DNA from: Pseudomonadota bacterium
GTDB taxonomy: Bacteria > Pseudomonadota > Gammaproteobacteria > Steroidobacterales > Steroidobacteraceae
Assembly: GCA_021849615.1 (NCBI GenBank)
Contig: JAJZSQ010000005.1
Coordinates: forward strand, 576 to 64,575
DNA length: 64,000 nt
Direction of reading: 5' to 3'
Each line of letters opens with the position of its first letter. Within the stretch, counting starts at the first letter, position 1. Under the pieces are notes generated by a model. The model had not been told where the DNA came from. It worked only from the letters and a program-made list of their open reading frames with translations, and did not search any database. Both the position numbers and the translations under genes were made by a program. This document shows, piece by piece, positions 8,228 through 33,564 of this stretch.

Positions 8228-9246
8228 AGAAACTGCGCACGCTGGTCGTGATGCACCCCAGTCTGGTGCCGCCGAAGACGCTCGCCAATCACAGCGAGAA
8301 GGAAATAGACGAGTGGCGTACCGAGTACAACGTCACCACGACTCTGCGCCGTCGTGGCCACGACGTGCGCTGTCTCGGGGTGCTCGACAGCCTGACCGAG
8401 ATGCGCGTGGCGATCGCCGAGTGGAAACCAGACATCGTCTTCAATCTGCTCGAGGAATTCAACGGCATCGTCACCTACGATCAGCACGTGGTGGCGTACC
8501 TGGAGCTGCTGCGCCAGCCGTATACCGGCTGCAATCCGCGCGGGCTGCTGCTGTCGCGCGACAAGCCGCTGAGCAAGCAATTGCTCGCCTATCACCGCAT
8601 TCCCACGCCGCGCTTCGAGGTGTTTCGGCGCGGCACGCCGGTGCGCACTGCGCGCAAGCTCACCTTTCCGCTGTTCGTGAAGTCCGCCACCGAGGATGCG
8701 TCGCTCGGAATCGCGCAGGCCTCGGTGGTCGAGGATTTGCCGCGGCTGAAGGAGCGGGTGGAGTTCATGTACGAGCAGATCGGCTCCGATGCGCTGGTCG
8801 AGGAGTACATCGAGGGGCGTGAGCTGTACGTCGGGGTGCTCGGCAACGAGCGGCTGGTGCGCCTGCCGGTGTGGGAGATGGCGTTCGGCTCGATGCCCGA
8901 GTCGCTGCCCATGATCGCCACCCGCAAGGTCAAGTGGGACCACGAGTACCGCGAGCGCTACGGCATCACCACGCACAAGGCGAGCGACCTGCCGAGCGGC
9001 GTCGAGGCGCGGCTCGACAAGCTCTCGCGGCGCATCTACCGGGTGCTCGGGCTCTCCGGCTATGCGCGCATGGATTTCCGCCTCACTCGCGACGGGCGCC
9101 TGTATGCGCTCGAGGCGAACGCCAACCCGAACCTGCAGGACGGGGAGGATTTCGCCGAGTCGGCGCTCGCCGCCGGCATCAAGTATCGCGACCTGCTCGA
9201 GCGGATCATGAAGCTCGGGCTGTCCTACCGCGCGCTCTGGCGCTGA
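8224..9246 (+). CDS. ATP-grasp ligase, D-Ala-D-Ala-ligase-like
   Basis: 340 residues with the ATP-grasp layout: an N-terminal Rossmann-like part (TLVVMHPSLVPP, FNLLEEFNG), a central ATP-binding region (FPLFVKSATEDASLGI, with the nucleotide-binding Lys near 151, and LVEEYIEGRELYVGV) and the Mg2+ motif EANANPNL (E297, N299, N301). It resembles D-alanine-D-alanine ligases but lacks a mur/ddl context, so it may form a different carboxylate-amine bond. It is coupled by a 4-base overlap to the metallopeptidase upstream. A ligase paired with a peptidase suggests synthesis or turnover of a small peptide or modified side chain. Confidence 0.78.
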   Translation: MKKLRTLVVMHPSLVPPKTLANHSEKEIDEWRTEYNVTTTLRRRGHDVRCLGVLDSLTEMRVAIAEWKPDIVFNLLEEFNGIVTYDQHVVAYLELLRQPYTGCNPRGLLLSRDKPLSKQLLAYHRIPTPRFEVFRRGTPVRTARKLTFPLFVKSATEDASLGIAQASVVEDLPRLKERVEFMYEQIGSDALVEEYIEGRELYVGVLGNERLVRLPVWEMAFGSMPESLPMIATRKVKWDHEYRERYGITTHKASDLPSGVEARLDKLSRRIYRVLGLSGYARMDFRLTRDGRLYALEANANPNLQDGEDFAESALAAGIKYRDLLERIMKLGLSYRALWR

Positions 9247-9423
9247 GCGCGCCGCACTGTCAGCACTCGCTCGCGTGCGCTGCCAGCGCCGCGCATGGAA
9301 AATCCGCGTATCGAACCGCTAAAATGAGCACGGGATCGCGGTTTTAACTGCGCTGTTGGATCAACTTTGGGTGCAGGCCGCCGATGTCATCCAGAGTACG
9401 CCGCGCGGGAGGTCACACCGTCC

Positions 9424-10071
9424 ATGTCGAGCCGAATCCAGCCGGTCGGAAATCTCACCGAGTACTTCAGAGATGCGCTGCACGGGGCGCTCGAGAACCA
9501 GCATGTGGCGCTCGAGGATCAGACCGAGCACTACGTGGTGAACCTGCTCACCCTGTTTGCCCGCTCCGAGGCACTGTTCGAATCCACCGCCGAGGGGTTG
9601 CGGCTGAAACCGCTCGTCGTGATGCTCACCGAAGCGCTCGAGGCCCGCACCCGCCAGGAGCGCGAGCGCGGGTTGCAGCGTCTCGGGGACGTCTCGCTGT
9701 TCATCGCCGGGTTCTTCGCGCGTGGCTTTGCGCGCAAGCTGATCGATATCGACTATCACATCGCCATGGGCGGATGCGCCTACGGCACGCTCGCCCGGCG
9801 GCTGTGCGCCTCAGGCGCTCCCCAGGAGGCGGCTGCGCGCCGCGGCCGCGTGCTCGGTCAGGTGTTTGCCGAGCTCGCCGCGAAGTTCCAACCCATGGTC
9901 GATGCGCTCAATGAGCTGAGCGAAGCGGGCTACACCCACACCTGCCGGGACATCCTGCGCCTGTACGAGCAGTGGCTGAAGACCGGCAGCCGGCGCAGCT
10001 ACGCACTGCTCAGGAGGCTCGGCGTCGAGCCGGCGGCGCAACCGGGGGCGGCGCTCGGCGCGTTGCACTGA
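9424..10071 (+). CDS. Unrecognised 215-residue protein, first of a pair
   Basis: No family is recognised. The protein (start MSSRIQPVGNLTEYF) is predicted mostly helical, without signal peptide or membrane segment. It carries a striking conserved-looking block (GALENQHVALEDQTEHYVVN) rich in acidic and His residues, and a Gly-rich MGGCAYGTLARRL stretch. ATG 9424 is chosen over an upstream TTG because its sequence becomes protein-like there. The next gene begins 3 bases after its stop, so they form a pair. They follow the metallopeptidase/ATP-grasp genes with a 177-base gap, which may hold a separate promoter. Confidence 0.6.
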   Translation: MSSRIQPVGNLTEYFRDALHGALENQHVALEDQTEHYVVNLLTLFARSEALFESTAEGLRLKPLVVMLTEALEARTRQERERGLQRLGDVSLFIAGFFARGFARKLIDIDYHIAMGGCAYGTLARRLCASGAPQEAAARRGRVLGQVFAELAAKFQPMVDALNELSEAGYTHTCRDILRLYEQWLKTGSRRSYALLRRLGVEPAAQPGAALGALH

Positions 10072-10074
10072 GCG

Positions 10075-10722
10075 ATGAACCTGACCCGCCTGCAGGAGTT
10101 GATCGGCGGGATCTACGATCTGGGGGTCGGCTACGACGTGTATGATTTTCTCGTCACCGACCGGGCGTGCCTGCCACAGTCCGTGCGTGCCCGACGGAGT
10201 GCGGAGGATCTGATCGTCGCCGAGGCGGGCGACGAGATGGCAGTGTCGCTGTATCTGGACCCGGGACTGCTCGAGCGGCTGGCCCGCGCCGATCCGATGG
10301 TGCGCCTCGATGAGCACAACGTTGCGGACTGGTGGACGGCGCTCGAGGGGTTGAGCCACTTCGTCTATCTGGCCTGGAACTGCGCGTACGACCGGCCGGT
10401 CTCGCTGCTCGAGCTGGAGATGCAGGCCGAAGTGGACAAGTACGTGGCCAGCTTCTGGCTGCTGCGCGCGCAGTGTCCGCAGCACTTCCCGGTCGAACTG
10501 CGACGGTTGCTGTTCGCACGCACCCGCATCGACCCGGAGCTCGCCGGGGAGCGCGCGGCACTCTACCGGCAGGCGAGCGCGTATGCCGAGCGTTTCTGCC
10601 GGCGGCTCGAGCAGCTGCTGCACGGGTCGTACGGCACCGAGGCGGCGGTGCTCGCGGAGCTGCGTCGCTTCTACCGGTACTCCCAGGCACGTAAGCGCTT
10701 GCACATCGAGCGGCTGGCCTGA
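10075..10722 (+). CDS. Unrecognised 215-residue protein, second of a pair
   Basis: No family is recognised. The sequence is helical and acidic in the middle (LYLDPGLLERLARADPMVRL, then EGLSHFVYLAWNCAYDRP and LELEMQAEVDKY), with a basic C-terminal tail ending YSQARKRLHIERLA. It has no signal peptide, membrane segment or obvious catalytic motif. It starts 3 bases after the preceding unknown gene, and the two products have equal length, so a complex or functional pair is likely. Alternatives cannot be weighed without profile searches. Confidence 0.6.
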   Translation: MNLTRLQELIGGIYDLGVGYDVYDFLVTDRACLPQSVRARRSAEDLIVAEAGDEMAVSLYLDPGLLERLARADPMVRLDEHNVADWWTALEGLSHFVYLAWNCAYDRPVSLLELEMQAEVDKYVASFWLLRAQCPQHFPVELRRLLFARTRIDPELAGERAALYRQASAYAERFCRRLEQLLHGSYGTEAAVLAELRRFYRYSQARKRLHIERLA

Positions 10723-25241: not shown

Positions 25242-25745
25242 TCAGGGCGCGGGGTAGGCGACCTCGACGATGACGAAGCGGCGCAGGCCGCCCGGCAGCT
25301 CGACGCTGAACTCCTCATCGAGGCGCCGGCCCATCAGTGCGCGGGCGAGCGGGGAGTCCATGCTGATGAAGCCCGGCTCGCGGTCGATCTCGTCCGGACC
25401 GACGATGCGGTAGCGGATTTCCTCCCCCGCTTCGGTCTCGAGCGTCACCCAGGCGCCGAAGAACACGCGGCGCGGATCCGACGGCGGCTGCTCCACGATC
25501 ACCATGCCCTGAAGCCGCTTGCGCAAGTAGCGCACGCGCCGGTCGATTTCACGCAGCCGTCGCTTGCCGTAGGTGTACTCGGCGTTCTCCGAGCGGTCGC
25601 CCTGGGCGGCCGCCTCGGCCACGGCGCGGGTCACCTGGGGCCGCTCGATGCGCCACAGCGCTTCGAGCTCCTCACGCAGCCGCGCCGCGCCCTGTGGCGT
25701 GATGTATTGCGAGGAGGCAGGCGAGGGCGGTCGGTAGCGGCTCAT
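25242..25745 (-). CDS. greB: Transcription elongation factor GreB
   Basis: GreB binds RNA polymerase through the secondary channel and stimulates cleavage of backtracked RNA. The 167-residue protein has the N-terminal coiled coil ([18 protein letters not shown], ending in [18 protein letters not shown] with the acidic tip) and the C-terminal FKBP-like domain ([26 protein letters not shown]). The YGKRRLRE segment separates GreB from GreA. It is convergent with hss, with only 5 bases between the stops. Confidence 0.94.
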
Positions 25746-25853
25746 GGTCTGTGCGGTCCCTGCCGGCGCCGCGGGCGGTCGTGGTCGCAGAATCGCGACA
25801 TTCTGCGCACGGCATCACGGTCCGCACGGCGGCCGGGGCGTTAGGCTTCGATC

Positions 25854-26060
25854 GTGGCCGTGAAGTATTACACGCACTTCCTGACCGGTGGCGGGGTCGA
25901 GCCCGAGAGCCCGATGACGCACGAGTGGAGCGGCGTGGTGGAATTGCTCGAGCCGCTGCGCGACCGGCGTGAACTCGGCGAACTGCGTTCGCTGCTGGCG
26001 GTGAATTTCAACCTGGAATCCGAGGACATCCGGATTCTGCACTGGGCACGTCTGCACTGA
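25854..26060 (+). CDS. Small conserved 68-residue protein
   Basis: GTG 25854 opens MAVKYYTHFLTGGGVEPESP, then WSGVVELLEPLRDRRELG and NFNLESEDIRILHWARLH. The sequence is compact and protein-like with no signal or membrane segment; no function is recognised. It is followed by a textbook terminator at 26107, which supports it as a real, monocistronic gene. It is divergent from greB. Confidence 0.6.
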   Translation: MAVKYYTHFLTGGGVEPESPMTHEWSGVVELLEPLRDRRELGELRSLLAVNFNLESEDIRILHWARLH

Positions 26061-26106
26061 AGTCCCCCCTGGACGGACGGGCGCTCGACGCTCATCCGCC
26101 CCATCG

Positions 26107-26137
26107 CCCCGATCCGCCCCCGGATCGGGGCTTTTTT
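26107..26137 (+). terminator. Rho-independent terminator
   Basis: CCCCGATCCG (26107-26116) pairs perfectly with CGGATCGGGG (26121-26130) around a CCCC loop, followed by C and six T. It ends the transcript of the 68-residue gene, ahead of the L,D-transpeptidase gene. Confidence 0.92.
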
Positions 26138-26187
26138 CGCTGTCGCCAAACCCCGAAACGGCGGACGAGATGTCATAATGTGAGGCT

Positions 26188-27420
26188 ATGAAACGCGTCA
26201 ACTTCTGCGTGATCTTCGCCGTTTGCCTGCCTCTGACAGCGCTCGGCTGCGCCACGGCCGTGGCGCGCACCGCGACCGCACCCTCCGGCGCCGCTGCGCC
26301 CGCTGCAGCCCAGAGCGCCCTGCCGCCTCCCATCCAGACCGAGCGCTTCGTGCTGAAGCCCGGTCAGGATGTGATCGGCCAGGTTCAGATGGTGAGGCTC
26401 AAGCCGCATCAGGTGCTCTCTGACGTCGCACGCGAGTTCGACGTCGGGTACGACGCGATCCGTCATGCCAATCCGAAGGTCGATCCGTGGCTGGCGCCGG
26501 TCGGCACGCCGGTCGTGGTGCCGACGCAGTTCATCCTGCCCGACGCGCCGCACGTGGGCATCGTCGTCGACTTGGCGGCGATGCGCCTGTTCTATTTTCC
26601 GCCCCACCGACCGGGAGAGCCGCAGGTCGTGATCACCCACCCGGTCGGCATCGGCCGGCTCGGCTGGCCGACCCCGACGGGCGTGACTTACGTGGCCGGA
26701 CACATCGCGCATCCGGCCTGGATCGTGCCGCGCTCGATTCTCGCCGAGCATGCCCACGAGGGTGTGCCGCTGACGCACGTGGTGCCGGCGGGCCCGAACA
26801 ACCCGCTCGGCCAGTATGCGATGCCACTCGCCTGGGCCGGCTATCTGATCCACGGCACCGACAAGCCGGCCGGCGTCGGCCGGCGCGTCAGCCACGGCTG
26901 CATCCACCTGTACCCGGAGGACATCAAGCAGCTGTTCCGCCAAGTGCCGAACGGCACCCCGGTGCGGGTCGTCAATCAGCCGTATCTGTTCGGCTGGAAG
27001 CACGGGCGGCTGTACATGCAGGCCTACGGTCCGCTCAAGGACGACAAGCGGCCGTGGAAGACCAATGCCACGTTGCTCGACCGGATGCTGACGCACCAAT
27101 TGATTCATCGATTGGCGCACGCACGCGAGCGCATCGACTGGAGCCGCGTGCGCGCGCTGGTGGCGACCCCGAAGGTGGTGCCGCTGCCGGTGTCCGGCCG
27201 CGGACTGGTCGGTTCGGGCCTGCAGGCGACGCTCGTGCAGAACCGTGTACCGAAAGGCTCGGCCTGGAACGGCAAGAGCGGCCTGCCGCTCAGCACCGCG
27301 GAGTTCCACAAGATCATGGCCCGCTACGATGCCTCGCTCAAAGACAAGCGCAAGGCGCGGGGTAAGAACAAGTCCGCAGATGCGCGCGCCGCCGGCGCGC
27401 GCGCCGTACACGCGTCCTGA
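26188..27420 (+). CDS. L,D-transpeptidase (YkuD family), lipoprotein-like
   Basis: 410 residues. An N-terminal signal ends in a lipobox-like LTALGC (Cys about 21), giving an envelope protein. A LysM-like segment (HQVLSDVAREFDVGYDAIRHAN) precedes the catalytic YkuD domain, with the substrate HxxxxxxxxxxxxxSHGCIHL type motif: IHGTDKPAGVGRRVSHGCIH, where the Cys is the nucleophile. It would form 3-3 peptidoglycan cross-links or attach proteins to peptidoglycan. The Lys/Ala-rich C-tail is unusual. CATAAT ends 8 bases before the ATG. Confidence 0.92.
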   Translation: MKRVNFCVIFAVCLPLTALGCATAVARTATAPSGAAAPAAAQSALPPPIQTERFVLKPGQDVIGQVQMVRLKPHQVLSDVAREFDVGYDAIRHANPKVDPWLAPVGTPVVVPTQFILPDAPHVGIVVDLAAMRLFYFPPHRPGEPQVVITHPVGIGRLGWPTPTGVTYVAGHIAHPAWIVPRSILAEHAHEGVPLTHVVPAGPNNPLGQYAMPLAWAGYLIHGTDKPAGVGRRVSHGCIHLYPEDIKQLFRQVPNGTPVRVVNQPYLFGWKHGRLYMQAYGPLKDDKRPWKTNATLLDRMLTHQLIHRLAHARERIDWSRVRALVATPKVVPLPVSGRGLVGSGLQATLVQNRVPKGSAWNGKSGLPLSTAEFHKIMARYDASLKDKRKARGKNKSADARAAGARAVHAS

Positions 27421-27428
27421 ATCGTGCA

Positions 27429-27449
27429 CCTCAGGCGCCGCGCCTGAGG
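27429..27449 (+). terminator. Hairpin after the L,D-transpeptidase gene
   Basis: CCTCAGGCGC (27429-27438) and GCGCCTGAGG (27440-27449) form a perfect inverted repeat 8 bases after the stop. There is no U-run, so this may be a weak or Rho-assisted terminator. Confidence 0.4.
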
Positions 27450-27543
27450 CGCGCCAAGGTTGCGGCCGCGGCGCGGGCCGCTTGGCACCTGTGGTAGAGT
27501 CCACGCGCCGTTCGACCCATAACAACGCCGCGGGGATATATCG

Positions 27544-29130
27544 GTGGTAGAAGGCGGTCCGGGCCTTTCCCTCCAGGTCAATGACGCAGAGGCGGCGGTG
27601 GCGCATCGCCAGCCGGTCACCGCATTCGTCGGCCGAACCCTCAAGGGACCGCTCAACCGCGCGGTACCGGTCGGAAGTTTCGCGGAATTCCAACAGATCT
27701 TCGGCGGGCTGTGGCAGCCCTCGACGCTCTCTTACGCAGTGGAACAGTTCTTCGCCAGCGGCGCCAGTCGTGCGCTCGTGGTGCGCGTCGCCAACGGTGC
27801 GCGCGCCCCGACGCTGGCACTGCCGGCCGGGGCCGAGACGCTGCGGCTTGCCGGTCTTGAACCCGGCTCACGCGAATATCTGCGCGCCTCGGTCGATTAC
27901 GACGGCATCGCCGAGACCGACGCGCTGTTCAACCTGGTGGTGCAGCGAACGCGCGCGGCCGGGTCCGAGCGCGTCGAGGATCAGGAAATCTTCCGCCGCC
28001 TGTCGGTGGCGAGCGGCGCGGAGCGCTGCCTCACCGGAGTGCTGCTGCACTCACAGCTCGTGCGGGTTATCCCGCCGCTGCCCGCGCAGCGTCCGGATCG
28101 CTCACCTCCCGGTGCCGGCGGGATCGGCATCGGCTATGTCGGCTCGAACAGCGACGGGGACGACGGTGCACCGGTCACCGATTACGATCTGATCGGCTCG
28201 GCCGCTGAGCGCACGGGCCTGTTCGCATTGCACGACGAGCCGTTCGATTTTCTCTGCATTCCGCCCCTCAGCCGCGAACAGGATGTCGGCCTCGGCACGC
28301 TGCTGGTGGCGGCCCGTCTGTGCCGGGAAAGTCATGCGATGCTCATTGTCGACCCGCCGGCGGCCTGGGACAGCCCGCAGACGGCGCTTGAGGCGATGCG
28401 CAAATGGCCATTCCGCAGCGATCACGCGGTGATGTACTACCCGCGGCTGCGCGCGTTCGACCAGCTGCGCGGGCGGATCGAGACGTTCGCCTGCTGCGGG
28501 GCGGCCGCGGGGCTGCTGTCGCGGGCCGAGGAAAGCGGGCTCGCCGCGAGCGCCGAGGAGGAGCCGGTCCTGCGCGCCGGGCTGCAGCCAGCCTTCGAGA
28601 TCTCCGCGTCGCAGCGGCTGCGTCTGGCGCTCACCGGCATCAATACGCTCTCGGCGAACCGCGCCGGTGCGGCTGGGGCGGTCCGTGCGCGCACCCTGGC
28701 AGCCGGCGCCGGGGGATCGCCCGACTGGTCGTTTCTCAACGCGCGGCGCCTGGCGCTGCGCATCGCGGCGAGCGTCGAGCGCGGCACGCGCTGGATGCTC
28801 TTCGAACAGAACGCTCCGCCCACCTGGGCGCGCGGCTGCTCGCTGGTCGATGCGTATCTCGCGCGGCTCGCCGCCGAAGGGGCGTTCGTCGGCGACTCGC
28901 GCGATGAACGCTATTTCGTGGTGTGCGACGAGCGCATCAACCCCGCGCAGTCGATCGCTGCCGGTTCGGTCAATCTGCTGTTCGGCATCGCCGCGCGCCG
29001 TCCCGGGGAATTCGATACCTGGCTGGTCAGCCACCAGCAGGAGGCAAGCCGTGCCCGCCCGGTGTCGGTCAATCGCTTGGCGATGCGCCCGAGCGGCTAC
29101 AGTCCGGCGGAGTTTGCGCTCCGTCATTGA
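27544..29130 (+). CDS. Orphan contractile tail sheath-like protein
   Basis: 528 residues, from GTG 27544. The N-terminus (VTAFVGRTLKGPLNRAVPVG, SFAEFQQIFGG, YAVEQFFASGASRALVVRV) and the C-terminus (WSFLNARRLALRIAASVERG, TRWMLFEQNAPPTWARGCSL, then FLCIPPL and YFVVCDERINP elements) are diagnostic of phage, pyocin and extracellular contractile injection sheath proteins. The variable middle is present. No tube, baseplate, spike, ATPase or capsid gene lies on either side: neighbours are an L,D-transpeptidase, a hydrolase and plsB. It is therefore either a domesticated sheath or part of an unlinked injection system. Base composition matches the surroundings. Confidence 0.82.
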   Translation: MVEGGPGLSLQVNDAEAAVAHRQPVTAFVGRTLKGPLNRAVPVGSFAEFQQIFGGLWQPSTLSYAVEQFFASGASRALVVRVANGARAPTLALPAGAETLRLAGLEPGSREYLRASVDYDGIAETDALFNLVVQRTRAAGSERVEDQEIFRRLSVASGAERCLTGVLLHSQLVRVIPPLPAQRPDRSPPGAGGIGIGYVGSNSDGDDGAPVTDYDLIGSAAERTGLFALHDEPFDFLCIPPLSREQDVGLGTLLVAARLCRESHAMLIVDPPAAWDSPQTALEAMRKWPFRSDHAVMYYPRLRAFDQLRGRIETFACCGAAAGLLSRAEESGLAASAEEEPVLRAGLQPAFEISASQRLRLALTGINTLSANRAGAAGAVRARTLAAGAGGSPDWSFLNARRLALRIAASVERGTRWMLFEQNAPPTWARGCSLVDAYLARLAAEGAFVGDSRDERYFVVCDERINPAQSIAAGSVNLLFGIAARRPGEFDTWLVSHQQEASRARPVSVNRLAMRPSGYSPAEFALRH

Positions 29131-29182
29131 GCGCACCGCGTCGCCTATGGCCTCGCGCGGCGTTTGACGGCATCATTACCGG

Positions 29183-29761
29183 ATGAGTGAACAGGCGCCT
29201 TCCCCGCAGGAGCGCTCCGGCGCGCCCGCCGAGGCCGTACCGCAGCGACACGTGGTCTTCTCGCACGGCCAGGCGAGCGGCCCGTGGGGCCGCAAAATCA
29301 CGGCGCTCGCCGAAGTGGTGCGCAGCGAAGGCTACGAGGCGCATTCGGTCGACTATCGCGGCATCGATGCGCCGCGCGAGCGGATTGCGCGGCTTGCCGA
29401 CTACTGCAAGGAGTTGAGCGGGGACCTGGTGCTCGTCGGCTCGAGCCTCGGCGGTTACGTCACCGTCGCCAGCGCCTCGGTGCTGCACGCGCGGGGGATC
29501 TTTCTGATGGCCCCGGCGCTGTATTTTGCTGAGCTGGCGCCGCTGCGCCCGGGCATCGTCGATTGTCCAGCCGCCGTGGTGCACGGGTGGCGCGACGAGG
29601 TCGTGCCCTACGAGCACAGCGTGCGCTTCGCGCAGAGCTGCCGCGCGGCGCTGCATCTGCTCGACAGCGACCACAACCTGCACAACCAGATTCGCGTGAT
29701 CCAGAATCTGTTCGAGTACTTTCTCATAGCGCTCGATCTGCCCACGCTCTCCTGCGACTGA
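29183..29761 (+). CDS. Alpha/beta hydrolase
   Basis: 192 residues. The nucleophile elbow GSSLGG (Ser about residue 87), the acid in HGWRDEVVP and the His in DSDHNLH complete a Ser-Asp-His triad. The HVVFSHGQASGPWGRKI start gives the oxyanion region. It resembles small YqiA/YcfP-like esterases acting in the cytoplasm. Substrate unknown. It lies between the sheath-like gene and plsB, same strand, with gaps of 52 and 60 bases. Confidence 0.85.
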   Translation: MSEQAPSPQERSGAPAEAVPQRHVVFSHGQASGPWGRKITALAEVVRSEGYEAHSVDYRGIDAPRERIARLADYCKELSGDLVLVGSSLGGYVTVASASVLHARGIFLMAPALYFAELAPLRPGIVDCPAAVVHGWRDEVVPYEHSVRFAQSCRAALHLLDSDHNLHNQIRVIQNLFEYFLIALDLPTLSCD

Positions 29762-29821
29762 GTCCGGCGGCGTGAGCGGGCGGGGGGATGCGCCGCGGCG
29801 GGCAGCGGGCGGGACGACGGC

Positions 29822-32248
29822 ATGAACTGGTTCTTGCAACGAGTGGCGTCGCTGTGGGTGCGCTGCCGGATCCTGCCGGAGGATGCCGCAGCGCGTCTGC
29901 GTGAGCGCCACAAACCGGTCTGCTACGTGCTCGAGCGGCACAGCGGCATCGATCTGGCCGTGCTGCAGAGCGTGTGCGAGCGGTTGCACCTGCCGCGCCC
30001 GCGCAAGCGCCTCCTGCACCGGCGCGGCGAACTGCGCTCGTTTTTCTATCTGACGCGCCTGCGCGGGGTCTGGAACGAGCGGCTCGACCGCCGTCCGCCG
30101 CCGCAGATCGAGCAACTGCTGCGGGCGCTCGATGCTGATCCCGAGGCCGACGTCGAGCTGGTGCCGGTGGCCGTCTACTGGGGGCGCGCGCCGCAGCGCG
30201 AGCAGTCGTGGTTCCGGCTGCTGCTAGTGGAAAATTGGGCGCTCACTAGCCGGGTGCGCAAGTTCCTGCAGGTGCTGTTCAACGGCCGCAATGCGCTGCT
30301 GGAGTTCGAGGAGCCGATCTCGCTGCGCAGTCTGGTGGGCGAGGAGCGCGGGCTGGCGCTGCGCGGGCGGCGCGTGACCCGCTCGCTGCGAGCGCTGTAC
30401 GTGCAGCGGCGCGCCGCGCGCATCGGGCCGGATCTGTCGCACCGGCGCGTGGTGGTCACGCGCGTGCTGCGCACCAGCGCAGTGCGCAGCGCCGCGGCCC
30501 AGCTGATGCGCGAGAAGAAGCTCACGCGTCGCGCGGCGCTGCGTGAGGCGGCCGGGTACGCCAACGAGATCGCGGCCAATTACTCCCATGCCTTCGTGCG
30601 CTTTCTTGAGCGGGTGCTGACCTGGTTGTGGAACCGGCTGTACGACGGGGTAACCGTCGGGCACCTCGAGACGCTCGAGCGGGCCGCGCAGGGCAATGAA
30701 ATCGTCTATGTGCCCTGCCACCGCAGTCACATGGACTACATGCTGTTGTCGTACGTGATCTACGTCAACGGCTATGCGCCGCCGCACATCGCCGCGGGCA
30801 TCAACCTCAACCTGCCGATCGTCGGGCGGTTCCTGCGCATGGGCGGGGCGTTCTTCATCCGCCGCCGCTTCGGGGGCAACGCGCTCTACACCGTGGTGTT
30901 CATGAAGTACCTCGCCGCCATCATGGCCCGAGGGCACTCCATCGAATACTTCATCGAGGGCGGGCGCAGCCGCACCGGGCGGCTGCTGCAGCCGAAGACC
31001 GGGATGCTCTCGATGACGGTGCGCAGCTTCCTGCGCGATCCGCTGCGCCCGGTGGTGTTCGTGCCGGTGTACTTCGGCTACGAGCGTATCATCGAGGGTA
31101 CGACCTATATCGGGGAGCTCTCCGGCAAACCGAAGGAGAAGGAGAGCGTGCTCGGGCTGGTGCGCTCCCTCGGCCGGCTGCGCGAGCGCTTCGGCCGGGT
31201 GCACGTGAACCTCGGTGAACCGATCGCCCTCGAGGCGATCCTGGACCGGCACGGGCCTTGGCGCGAGCAATGCTTCGATGAGGCAACGCGTGCCGCCTGG
31301 GTGAGCGCGGCGGTCGATGAACTCGCCGGGCGCATCATGTGCAACATCAACGCAGCCGCGGCGGTCACGCCGGTGAACCTGCTCGCGATGGTGCTGCTCG
31401 CCATGCCGCGCCAGGCGCTGCCGGAGGACGACCTGACGAGGCAGATCGATCTGTACCGCGCACTGCTCGCCGGCTGCCCGTACAGCGAGCGGGTCACGGT
31501 GAGCGAGCTCACCGGGACGCAGACCATCGCCTACGGGGAGTCGCTGAAGGTGCTCGAGCGCCTCACCTATCCGTCCGGTGACGTGCTGCGCATGAGCGAT
31601 GAGAGCGCGGTGCTCGCCGCCTACTTCCGCAACAACATTCTGCACCTGTTCGCGTTGCCGTCACTGATCGCGTGCGTATTCCTCAGCAACGCCGCGGTGC
31701 CGCACGAGGACATCCTGCGTCTCGCCGGGCGCATCTATCCGTACATCGCTGCGGAACTGTTCCTGCGCTGGAGCGAGGAGGAGCTGCCGGCAGTGGTCGA
31801 AACCGTGCTCGGTGAGTTCGCCCGCCACGGGCTGATCGAGCGCGACCCGCACGGGGCGCTGTGGCGCCGTCCGCCGCCCTCGAGCGCCCAGGCGATGCAG
31901 CTGTCGATCCTGGCTCAGGCGACGCTGCAGACCATCGAGCGCTACTACCTCGCGATTGCGCTGCTGGTCGAGGCCGGCTCCGGGACGATCAGCCAGGCGA
32001 CGCTCGAGGAGCGCTGTCAACTCGCGGCGCAGCGTATCGCGCTGCTCTACGGGCTGAACTCCCCGGAGTTCTTTGATCGGGCACTGTTTGCGAACTTCAT
32101 CGACCTGCTGCGCCGGCGCGCCGTGGTGCGCGTCACCCGTGGCGGATTGCTAGAGTTCGACGAGGTGCTGATGCGCGTCGCCGCCGACGCGCAGTTCGTG
32201 CTGAGCGAACAGATCCGCCACAGCATCCTGCAGGTGACGCACGCCTGA
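29822..32248 (+). CDS. plsB: Glycerol-3-phosphate 1-O-acyltransferase PlsB
   Basis: The 808-residue membrane-associated enzyme acylates sn-1 of glycerol-3-phosphate, the first step in phospholipid synthesis. The catalytic HX4D box HRSHMD is at H300/D305, followed by GINLNLPIVGRFLRMGGAFF, FIEGGRSRTGRLL and VPVYFGYERIIEG, the four conserved acyltransferase blocks. The length matches PlsB of gammaproteobacteria. It probably has its own promoter after the hydrolase gene. Confidence 0.95.
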   Translation: MNWFLQRVASLWVRCRILPEDAAARLRERHKPVCYVLERHSGIDLAVLQSVCERLHLPRPRKRLLHRRGELRSFFYLTRLRGVWNERLDRRPPPQIEQLLRALDADPEADVELVPVAVYWGRAPQREQSWFRLLLVENWALTSRVRKFLQVLFNGRNALLEFEEPISLRSLVGEERGLALRGRRVTRSLRALYVQRRAARIGPDLSHRRVVVTRVLRTSAVRSAAAQLMREKKLTRRAALREAAGYANEIAANYSHAFVRFLERVLTWLWNRLYDGVTVGHLETLERAAQGNEIVYVPCHRSHMDYMLLSYVIYVNGYAPPHIAAGINLNLPIVGRFLRMGGAFFIRRRFGGNALYTVVFMKYLAAIMARGHSIEYFIEGGRSRTGRLLQPKTGMLSMTVRSFLRDPLRPVVFVPVYFGYERIIEGTTYIGELSGKPKEKESVLGLVRSLGRLRERFGRVHVNLGEPIALEAILDRHGPWREQCFDEATRAAWVSAAVDELAGRIMCNINAAAAVTPVNLLAMVLLAMPRQALPEDDLTRQIDLYRALLAGCPYSERVTVSELTGTQTIAYGESLKVLERLTYPSGDVLRMSDESAVLAAYFRNNILHLFALPSLIACVFLSNAAVPHEDILRLAGRIYPYIAAELFLRWSEEELPAVVETVLGEFARHGLIERDPHGALWRRPPPSSAQAMQLSILAQATLQTIERYYLAIALLVEAGSGTISQATLEERCQLAAQRIALLYGLNSPEFFDRALFANFIDLLRRRAVVRVTRGGLLEFDEVLMRVAADAQFVLSEQIRHSILQVTHA

Positions 32249-32262
32249 GGCTTCGCCCGCGC

Positions 32263-33564
32263 TCACTGGGTGCGCGGTGAGATCGTCGGGATCTGCAGCG
32301 GGAGTTCTTCCCCGGCGAGCGTGTCGTCGTCGTGGCCGAGCGACGGAATGCCCGGCAGGGTGTCGTTGGGGTTGCTGCGTGCGTGCGGCATGCGTTCATC
32401 GAGATAGACCAGCTCGTGCTTGCCGATCAGCACCACGTCCCCGTCGCGCAGGTAGTGCCGGTGCACGCGCAGGGATCGCACGTACAGTCCGTTGGTACTG
32501 TTGAGATCCTCGATGATGCACGCCTGGTTGGTCGTGGTGATCTGGCAGTGATGGCGGCTGATGAAGCGGCTGTCGATCTGCAGGTCGTTGTCCGGGGTGC
32601 GGCCGATGATGATGCGCCCGGGCAGCAGCGGGATTTCCTGCTGCGTGCGGCTGCCGTCGAGCACCTGCAGGCGCGCGAGCGGCGGCATCGCCGCTTCGCG
32701 CCGCGGTCGCTGGCGCACCGAGGTGGTGGTCGCCATGCCCTCGGGCCGCGCGGCAAACTCCACCCATTGCAGCTCACTCACCGCGCTGGCGATGTCTGCG
32801 GCCGTGACTTGATCGCGATCGTCGCTGTACGCGGCCATCATGGCCGTATCGCACAGCGTGTTGATCAGGCGGGGGACCCCGCCGCTGTAGCGGTGAATCT
32901 CGGCGAACGTGTCGGGGGCGAAGATCTCGCGCTCTGCGCCGCCGGCGACGGCGAGGCGGTGGCGGATGTACTCGGTGGTCTCCTCGGCGCAGAGCGCCGA
33001 GAGGTGCAGGCGCAGCCGCACGCGCTGGTTCAGCTGCACCAGCTCCGGAGCGTCGAGCTTGGCGTTGAGCTCCGGTTGGCCGGCCAGAATGATGCGCAGC
33101 ACCTTCTCCTTGGTGGTCTCGACCCCCGAGAGCAGGCGGATCTCCTCGAGCACGCGCTGGGAGAGGTTCTGCGCCTCATCGACGATCAGCAGCACGCGCC
33201 GGCCGGCCGCGTACTGCTCGATGAGGAAGTTGTTCAGGGTCACCAGCAGCTCGCTCTTCTTCATCTTGAAGGGCGAGAAGCCGAACTGCGCGAGCACGGA
33301 CTGCAGGAAGTCGACAGCCGAGACCTGCGTCTGGTTGATCTGGGCGACCACGACGTCCTGCGGCACTTCGCGCAGGAAAGACTCGATCAGCGTGGTCTTG
33401 CCCGCCCCGATCTCCCCGGTGATCACCACGAATCCGTCGGCGAACCAGATCGTCGACTCCATGTACGCCTTGGCCCGGGCGTGCTGTTTGGAGAGGAATA
33501 GGAATTGGGGGTCGGGACTGAGCCGAAAGGGCAGTTCCTTCAGATGAAACGGCTCGATGTACAT
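32263..33564 (-). CDS. ExeA/GspA-like AAA ATPase fused to an FHA domain
   Basis: 433 residues. Residues 1-270 are an ExeA-type ATPase: MYIEPFHLKELPFRLSPDP, Walker A GEIGAGKT (about 50-57), Walker B LLIVDEAQN (about 126), then LAGQPELNAKL and GVPRLINTLCD. Residues about 310-395 form an FHA phosphopeptide-binding domain: RIIIGRTPDNDLQID, SRHHCQI and NSTNGLYV. The usual peptidoglycan-binding domain and transmembrane helix of ExeA are absent and no GspB or secretion gene is near. It is the last gene of a darP-purE-purK set, 11 bases after purK. FHA fusion implies control by Ser/Thr phosphorylation. Confidence 0.85.
   Translation of the reverse strand: MYIEPFHLKELPFRLSPDPQFLFLSKQHARAKAYMESTIWFADGFVVITGEIGAGKTTLIESFLREVPQDVVVAQINQTQVSAVDFLQSVLAQFGFSPFKMKKSELLVTLNNFLIEQYAAGRRVLLIVDEAQNLSQRVLEEIRLLSGVETTKEKVLRIILAGQPELNAKLDAPELVQLNQRVRLRLHLSALCAEETTEYIRHRLAVAGGAEREIFAPDTFAEIHRYSGGVPRLINTLCDTAMMAAYSDDRDQVTAADIASAVSELQWVEFAARPEGMATTTSVRQRPRREAAMPPLARLQVLDGSRTQQEIPLLPGRIIIGRTPDNDLQIDSRFISRHHCQITTTNQACIIEDLNSTNGLYVRSLRVHRHYLRDGDVVLIGKHELVYLDERMPHARSNPNDTLPGIPSLGHDDDTLAGEELPLQIPTISPRTQ

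Follow-up and report, generated by a model that had tools for sequence, protein, structure and literature searches.

Why should a gene for a contractile tail-sheath-like protein stand alone among housekeeping genes? The gene lies in a window of 64,000 nucleotides, the whole stretch of DNA analysed here, from a gammaproteobacterium of the order Steroidobacterales. Its reading frame of 528 codons is uninterrupted and shares one strand with its neighbors throughout: an LdtE-like gene (ldt) ends 123 bp upstream, a hydrolase gene starts 52 bp downstream, and plsB follows (Table 1). Pfam matches agree with the neighbors named in a preceding reading of the DNA without database searches (hereafter the sequence-only reading), namely, a YkuD-type L,D-transpeptidase, an alpha/beta hydrolase, and GPAT/PlsB. 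The GC content of the sheath gene is host-like (0.699, compared to 0.685 for the window). A scan of positions 25700-32400 found no sigma-70-like promoter, a result that says little in a GC-rich genome. Adjoining plsB on the minus strand (32263-33564) is a gene for a fusion of an AAA ATPase with an FHA domain, which is kept beside plsB in near relatives and whose AAA family differs from that of the ATPase of CIS-type injection systems.

Table 1. Features of the sheath locus (positions in the window)
Feature	Positions	Strand	Basis or remark
Solitary sheath-fold protein, 528 aa, GTG start	27544..29130	+	ORF calls, profiles, structure model, fold comparison
N-terminal arm, residues 1-20	27544..27603	+	diverged from CIS motif YPGVYIEEVPSG; unordered in model
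Middle (outer) domain, residues 84-240	27793..28263	+	strongest constraint when compared with CIS sheaths
C-terminal assembly domain with C-arm RPGEF, residues 401-500	28744..29043	+	conservation lost compared to CIS sheaths
C-terminal extension, residues 501-528	29044..29127	+	past the CIS sheath end; predicted strand 502-507
LdtE-like L,D-transpeptidase (YkuD)	26188..27420	+	most persistent neighbor, upstream, co-directional
Alpha/beta hydrolase (UPF0227-like)	29183..29761	+	adjoins in genus and some others
plsB, glycerol-3-phosphate acyltransferase	29822..32248	+	nearby in genus and some others

The protein belongs to the contractile sheath fold (Phage_sheath superfamily). The PHROG tail sheath profile matched residues 24-483 (E=1.4e-30), and a sequence search of the PDB gave the sheath of a Streptomyces CIS as the best match (8bky, E=2e-31), along with a haloarchaeal sheath (9ezm, E=7e-31). 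Structure prediction, which had been proposed as a check, gave the full sheath fold: the AlphaFold2 model, based on 40 family members, has a pLDDT of 86.9 and a pTM of 0.86, and only residues 1-20 and about 511-528 are unordered. Foldseek retrieved 9ezm with this model (E=4e-28), and VIA-align superposed 324 residues on the CIS sheath of S. coelicolor (9gts) at 2.5 Å with a Z-score of 33.0. The sequence-only reading had called the N- and C-terminal sheath domains clear. The sheath identity stands on the PHROG, PDB, and AlphaFold2 results, but the domains are not clear in Pfam: the sole sheath-domain match was Phage_sheath_1C at 19.7 bits, below the gathering cut-off of 26.9 (a limit of detection rather than a feature of the structure), and Phage_sheath_1 (PF04984) had no match anywhere in the genome.

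The difference from the sheaths of CIS lies in which parts are conserved. The N- and C-terminal parts of sheath proteins form the conserved tube-binding and assembly core, and the other domains are variable (PMC9230969); neighboring subunits swap N- and C-terminal strands to form a mesh (PMC5807055, PMC6088184). Mean pairwise column identity among CIS sheaths was 0.70 (N-arm), 0.71 (residues 401-500), and 0.26 (residues 84-240), whereas the corresponding values for the solitary sheaths (one sequence per family or genus) were 0.24, 0.29, and 0.44. The solitary sheaths thus lack the conservation of the N-arm and the C-terminal domain, from which the CIS mesh is formed. The ratio of middle- to C-terminal-domain conservation was 1.49 (jackknife 1.43-1.58) for the solitary and 0.36 (0.35-0.37) for the CIS sheaths, with separate ranges, and the regional shift between the two sets gave a Mann-Whitney p of about 5e-35. 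Because the absolute identity of the middle domain is higher in the solitary set, although this set is more divergent overall (0.37 vs 0.46), the alignment indicates that the domain has gained constraint, and that the shift does not reflect relaxation elsewhere only. The conserved residues specific to the solitary sheaths concentrate at 84-147 and 198-261.

The C-terminal end differs as well. CIS sheaths continue for 5-7 residues past the C-arm reference column, and solitary sheaths for 18-76. An outright loss of the canonical C-arm was considered and proved wrong, for the alignment has RPGEF and then the extension. The C-terminal part of the solitary model contains strands at 491-497 and 502-507. 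The pLDDT of the C-terminal domain was about 89-94 in the solitary monomer and mostly 54-70 in a CIS control monomer, a contrast that is only suggestive because the control alignment was shallower (18 vs 40 rows).

The lost conservation of these interfaces argues against a canonical sheath tubule as far as the sequences can tell, but it does not prove that assembly is lost, because the arms can co-evolve to form a different interface. The main rival to the explanation that we favor is a filament without a tube: a hollow cytoplasmic tubule, polysheath-like, serving as a cytoskeletal or envelope-associated scaffold. The sheath proteins of T4 and phiKZ set a precedent by forming polysheaths without a tube or baseplate (PMC6088184). 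In the solitary sheath the entire fold is retained, the C-arm strand is still recognizable, and the persistent neighbor encodes a cell-wall enzyme. However, the interfaces that such a filament needs are the very ones that have lost conservation, and a tail has been added at the end where strands are exchanged. We regard the filament as rather unlikely.

Comparison with related genomes allowed us to assess the neighbors themselves, which the sequence-only reading had described as envelope-related. The order greB-ldt-sheath-hydrolase-plsB is preserved in the nearer relatives within the genus, and the deeper ones have intervening housekeeping genes. A general functional link of the sheath to plsB or the hydrolase was rejected because both are absent near the sheath in most other families. 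Wherever the comparison located the L,D-transpeptidase gene near the sheath (18 loci in six families), it is upstream on the same strand. It is not beside the sheath at four loci that retain the sheath (L053, L054, L084, and L086). An envelope role is a lead only, suggested by the persistent L,D-transpeptidase linkage, since other families, and one subclade of the genus, lack that gene at this position. The envelope-related context is partly general synteny.

When the order Steroidobacterales was sampled evenly, the sheath gene was present in 141 of 196 genomes, 46 of 60 genera, and 113 of 145 genomes of good quality, nearly always as one copy amid housekeeping genes. It is not universal in the order, because some families have no copy, and its presence is patchy. 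A homolog with 58% identity was found in "Steroidobacteraceae bacterium ACE_PRO68". A tree of 52 sheaths contains a branch (SH-aLRT 100) that separates all 32 solitary rows from the tube-bearing CIS sheaths. A single origin in the common ancestor would follow from this gene tree, and we infer later losses. One gain and then several losses is the simplest reading of the sequences, though not proved, since the presence is patchy and the backbone of the RpoB species tree, used to place the gain and losses, is unresolved. Outside the order, a tube gene adjoins the sheath gene in those of the best full-length class-level matches that were inspected (including L128-L135, of which L131 sits at a contig edge). 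Among 398 genomes sampled across the phylum, only four others matched at E below 1e-60. Matches with 32-38% identity on viral contigs and plasmids were considered as solitary relatives and rejected, all six that were checked (L141-L144, L162, and L163) having an adjoining tube.

Defense genes usually show patchy distributions and change fast. This pattern bears on a second rival, in which the protein is a decoy that resembles a sheath subunit and disrupts the assembly of incoming contractile phage tails or of competing injection systems. The homology to both CIS and phage sheaths would suit such interference, and the altered arms could serve as dominant-negative ends. The slowly evolving outer domain, the single copy, the order-wide vertical inheritance, and the housekeeping context nevertheless make a decoy quite improbable.

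The sequence-only reading had also allowed that the gene might be the unlinked part of an injection system, with the tube and baseplate encoded elsewhere in the genome. As it had stated, no partner gene lies beside the sheath: the non-sheath proteins of nine CIS loci had no match anywhere in the window. A genome-wide search extended this result, finding one sheath and no gp19 tube, gp25, or Pvc16 (for the tube, nothing above chance). This genome is merely 87% complete, and relatives were therefore brought in. Pvc16 and gp25-type genes are also absent from most of the near-complete relatives. Among 60 genomes searched as relatives, 53 had a sheath match (a few of CIS type only), and a custom tube profile built from 14 rows, as well as Pvc16, matched only in G005, G042, and G044; a search with the tube family PF06841 added one partial match, in G058. 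The few other members with gp25-type genes have them on different contigs, without tubes. Genomes G005 and G042 carry both the solitary sheath and, at a different locus, a CIS cluster with its own sheath, and thus provide a clean internal control. In the order sample, gp19 was found in 7 of 196 genomes, 4 of them among the 141 sheath carriers (G042, G504, G529, and, partially, G058), so that 137 carriers have none; among the latter are the single-contig carriers G429, G448, G465, G470, G479, and G487. The genes between the sheath and the hydrolase in deeper members of the genus were considered as missing CIS parts and ruled out by annotation of three loci, where the insertions are a 5-oxoprolinase-like gene, an amino-acid permease, a glycosyltransferase, and a TPR-type gene.

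These searches leave the unlinked-part explanation very improbable, even though the sheath is of CIS type and a few carriers do have CIS genes. For gp19-type tubes it is already refuted, and a location of the rest elsewhere in the genome was rejected for any recognizable tube because tubes are rare in the carriers and the single-contig ones have none; in addition, the CIS clusters inspected have their own sheath. Since defining features of CIS were looked for and not found, the solitary sheath should not be filed as an injection-system part.

The dN/dS values of the sheath gene against five close relatives (0.14-0.19) are similar to those of the adjacent ldt gene, indicating that it is under purifying selection. 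The remaining explanation, a decaying prophage or CIS remnant, to which a lone structural gene without partners might point, is already refuted by selection and distribution and is hardly conceivable: the frame is intact in all near relatives with a complete gene, no genus match contains an internal stop, 46 genera retain the gene, its GC content is host-like, and no phage record covers 80% of it, in line with the earlier remark that decay is not evident.

We consider the most probable explanation, at roughly 0.55, to be a domesticated sheath, that is, an exapted protein of the cytoplasm that does not contract and whose former outer domain does the work. Domestication, which the sequence-only reading had suggested, is well supported by the order-wide single-copy occurrence in one clade, the purifying selection, and the scarcity of gp19 tubes among carriers; the mechanism we infer as follows. 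The comparisons show that a CIS-type sheath gene has parted from the tube, cap, ATPase, and baseplate and persists as a single-copy cellular gene in a large part of one gammaproteobacterial order. No export signal is evident, and the protein is expected to be located in the cytoplasm. With no tube to grip and no contractile mesh to weave, the N-arm and the C-terminal assembly domain have diverged, and the C-terminal extension has been added. A hairpin is predicted between the extension and the strand normally donated to a neighboring subunit, so the subunit may cap itself. The former outer domain, which is the conserved part, is probably the working surface that binds a partner or ligand, and the sheath would not contract and would exist as a monomer, a ring, or a short oligomer. 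It seems fairly probable that the conversion took place once, early in the history of the order, and yielded a cellular protein that has no part in injection, works through the surface of the former outer domain, and has shed the machinery for contraction.

Phage-tail parts have been co-opted as whole machines, namely, the type VI secretion system (T6SS), extracellular and cytoplasmic injection systems, and tailocins. A lone tail component as a near-core gene of an order, comparable to what encapsulins are for capsids, would represent a different route of domestication. We found no earlier description of a solitary sheath in the searchable literature, the coverage of which is incomplete (most subscription papers and all preprints lie outside it). 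The inverted conservation predicts that no canonical tubule forms, that the outer domain has a conserved partner, and that the C-terminus caps itself. For annotation, a sheath match need not imply a phage or an injection system.

Among the known systems, the Cis2 sheaths of Streptomyces coelicolor (8bky and 9gts) and Halogeometricum borinquense (9ezm) share the fold and the domain order with the solitary sheath, with 24-28% identity over the structural alignments. Their genes are accompanied by those for a tube and further machine parts, and their arm motifs are kept, whereas the solitary sheath has no tube, diverged arms, and a C-terminal extension. The compact gammaproteobacterial CIS clusters (L128-L135) are among its nearest tube-bearing relatives; in these the tube adjoins, the sheath ends 5-7 residues past the C-arm column, and the conservation profile is the opposite of that of the solitary sheaths. 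The cluster at positions 8302-16892 of L128 consists of a sheath, a tube, a gp26-like protein, Pvc16, and an AAA ATPase; L129, L130, and L132-L135 are similar, and L128-L130 have an added papain-like protease. A Pfam scan of the seven L128 proteins detected no gp25, gpJ, or spike families.

Other sheath loci were noted during the comparison. A second orphan sheath of CIS type (L073, positions 8688-10208, G056:C3) is about 55% identical to a CIS sheath and has intact arm motifs (PGVYI and PAEFVV), and no tube was found nearby or anywhere in genome G056; this independent sheath without a tube may still be able to polymerize. The IMG/VR "viral" contigs L141-L144 are probably bacterial CIS fragments filed as viral because they carry a CIS-type sheath and tube pair. 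In L195 (8284-10409, G711), a sheath with about 47% identity to a CIS sheath adjoins an AAA ATPase match, and no tube match was found in 18 kb.

More distantly, TssB/TssC of the T6SS have the sheath core fold in common with these proteins according to a published comparison (PMC9230969). Unlike the solitary sheath, that of the T6SS is built of two proteins and comes with a tube and a disassembly ATPase of its own. Encapsulins offer an analogy, not a relationship: they are likewise standalone cellular genes and probably descend from a single structural protein of a phage (PMC8987985). They have the HK97 capsid fold and form shells with known cargo, whereas the solitary sheath has the sheath fold.
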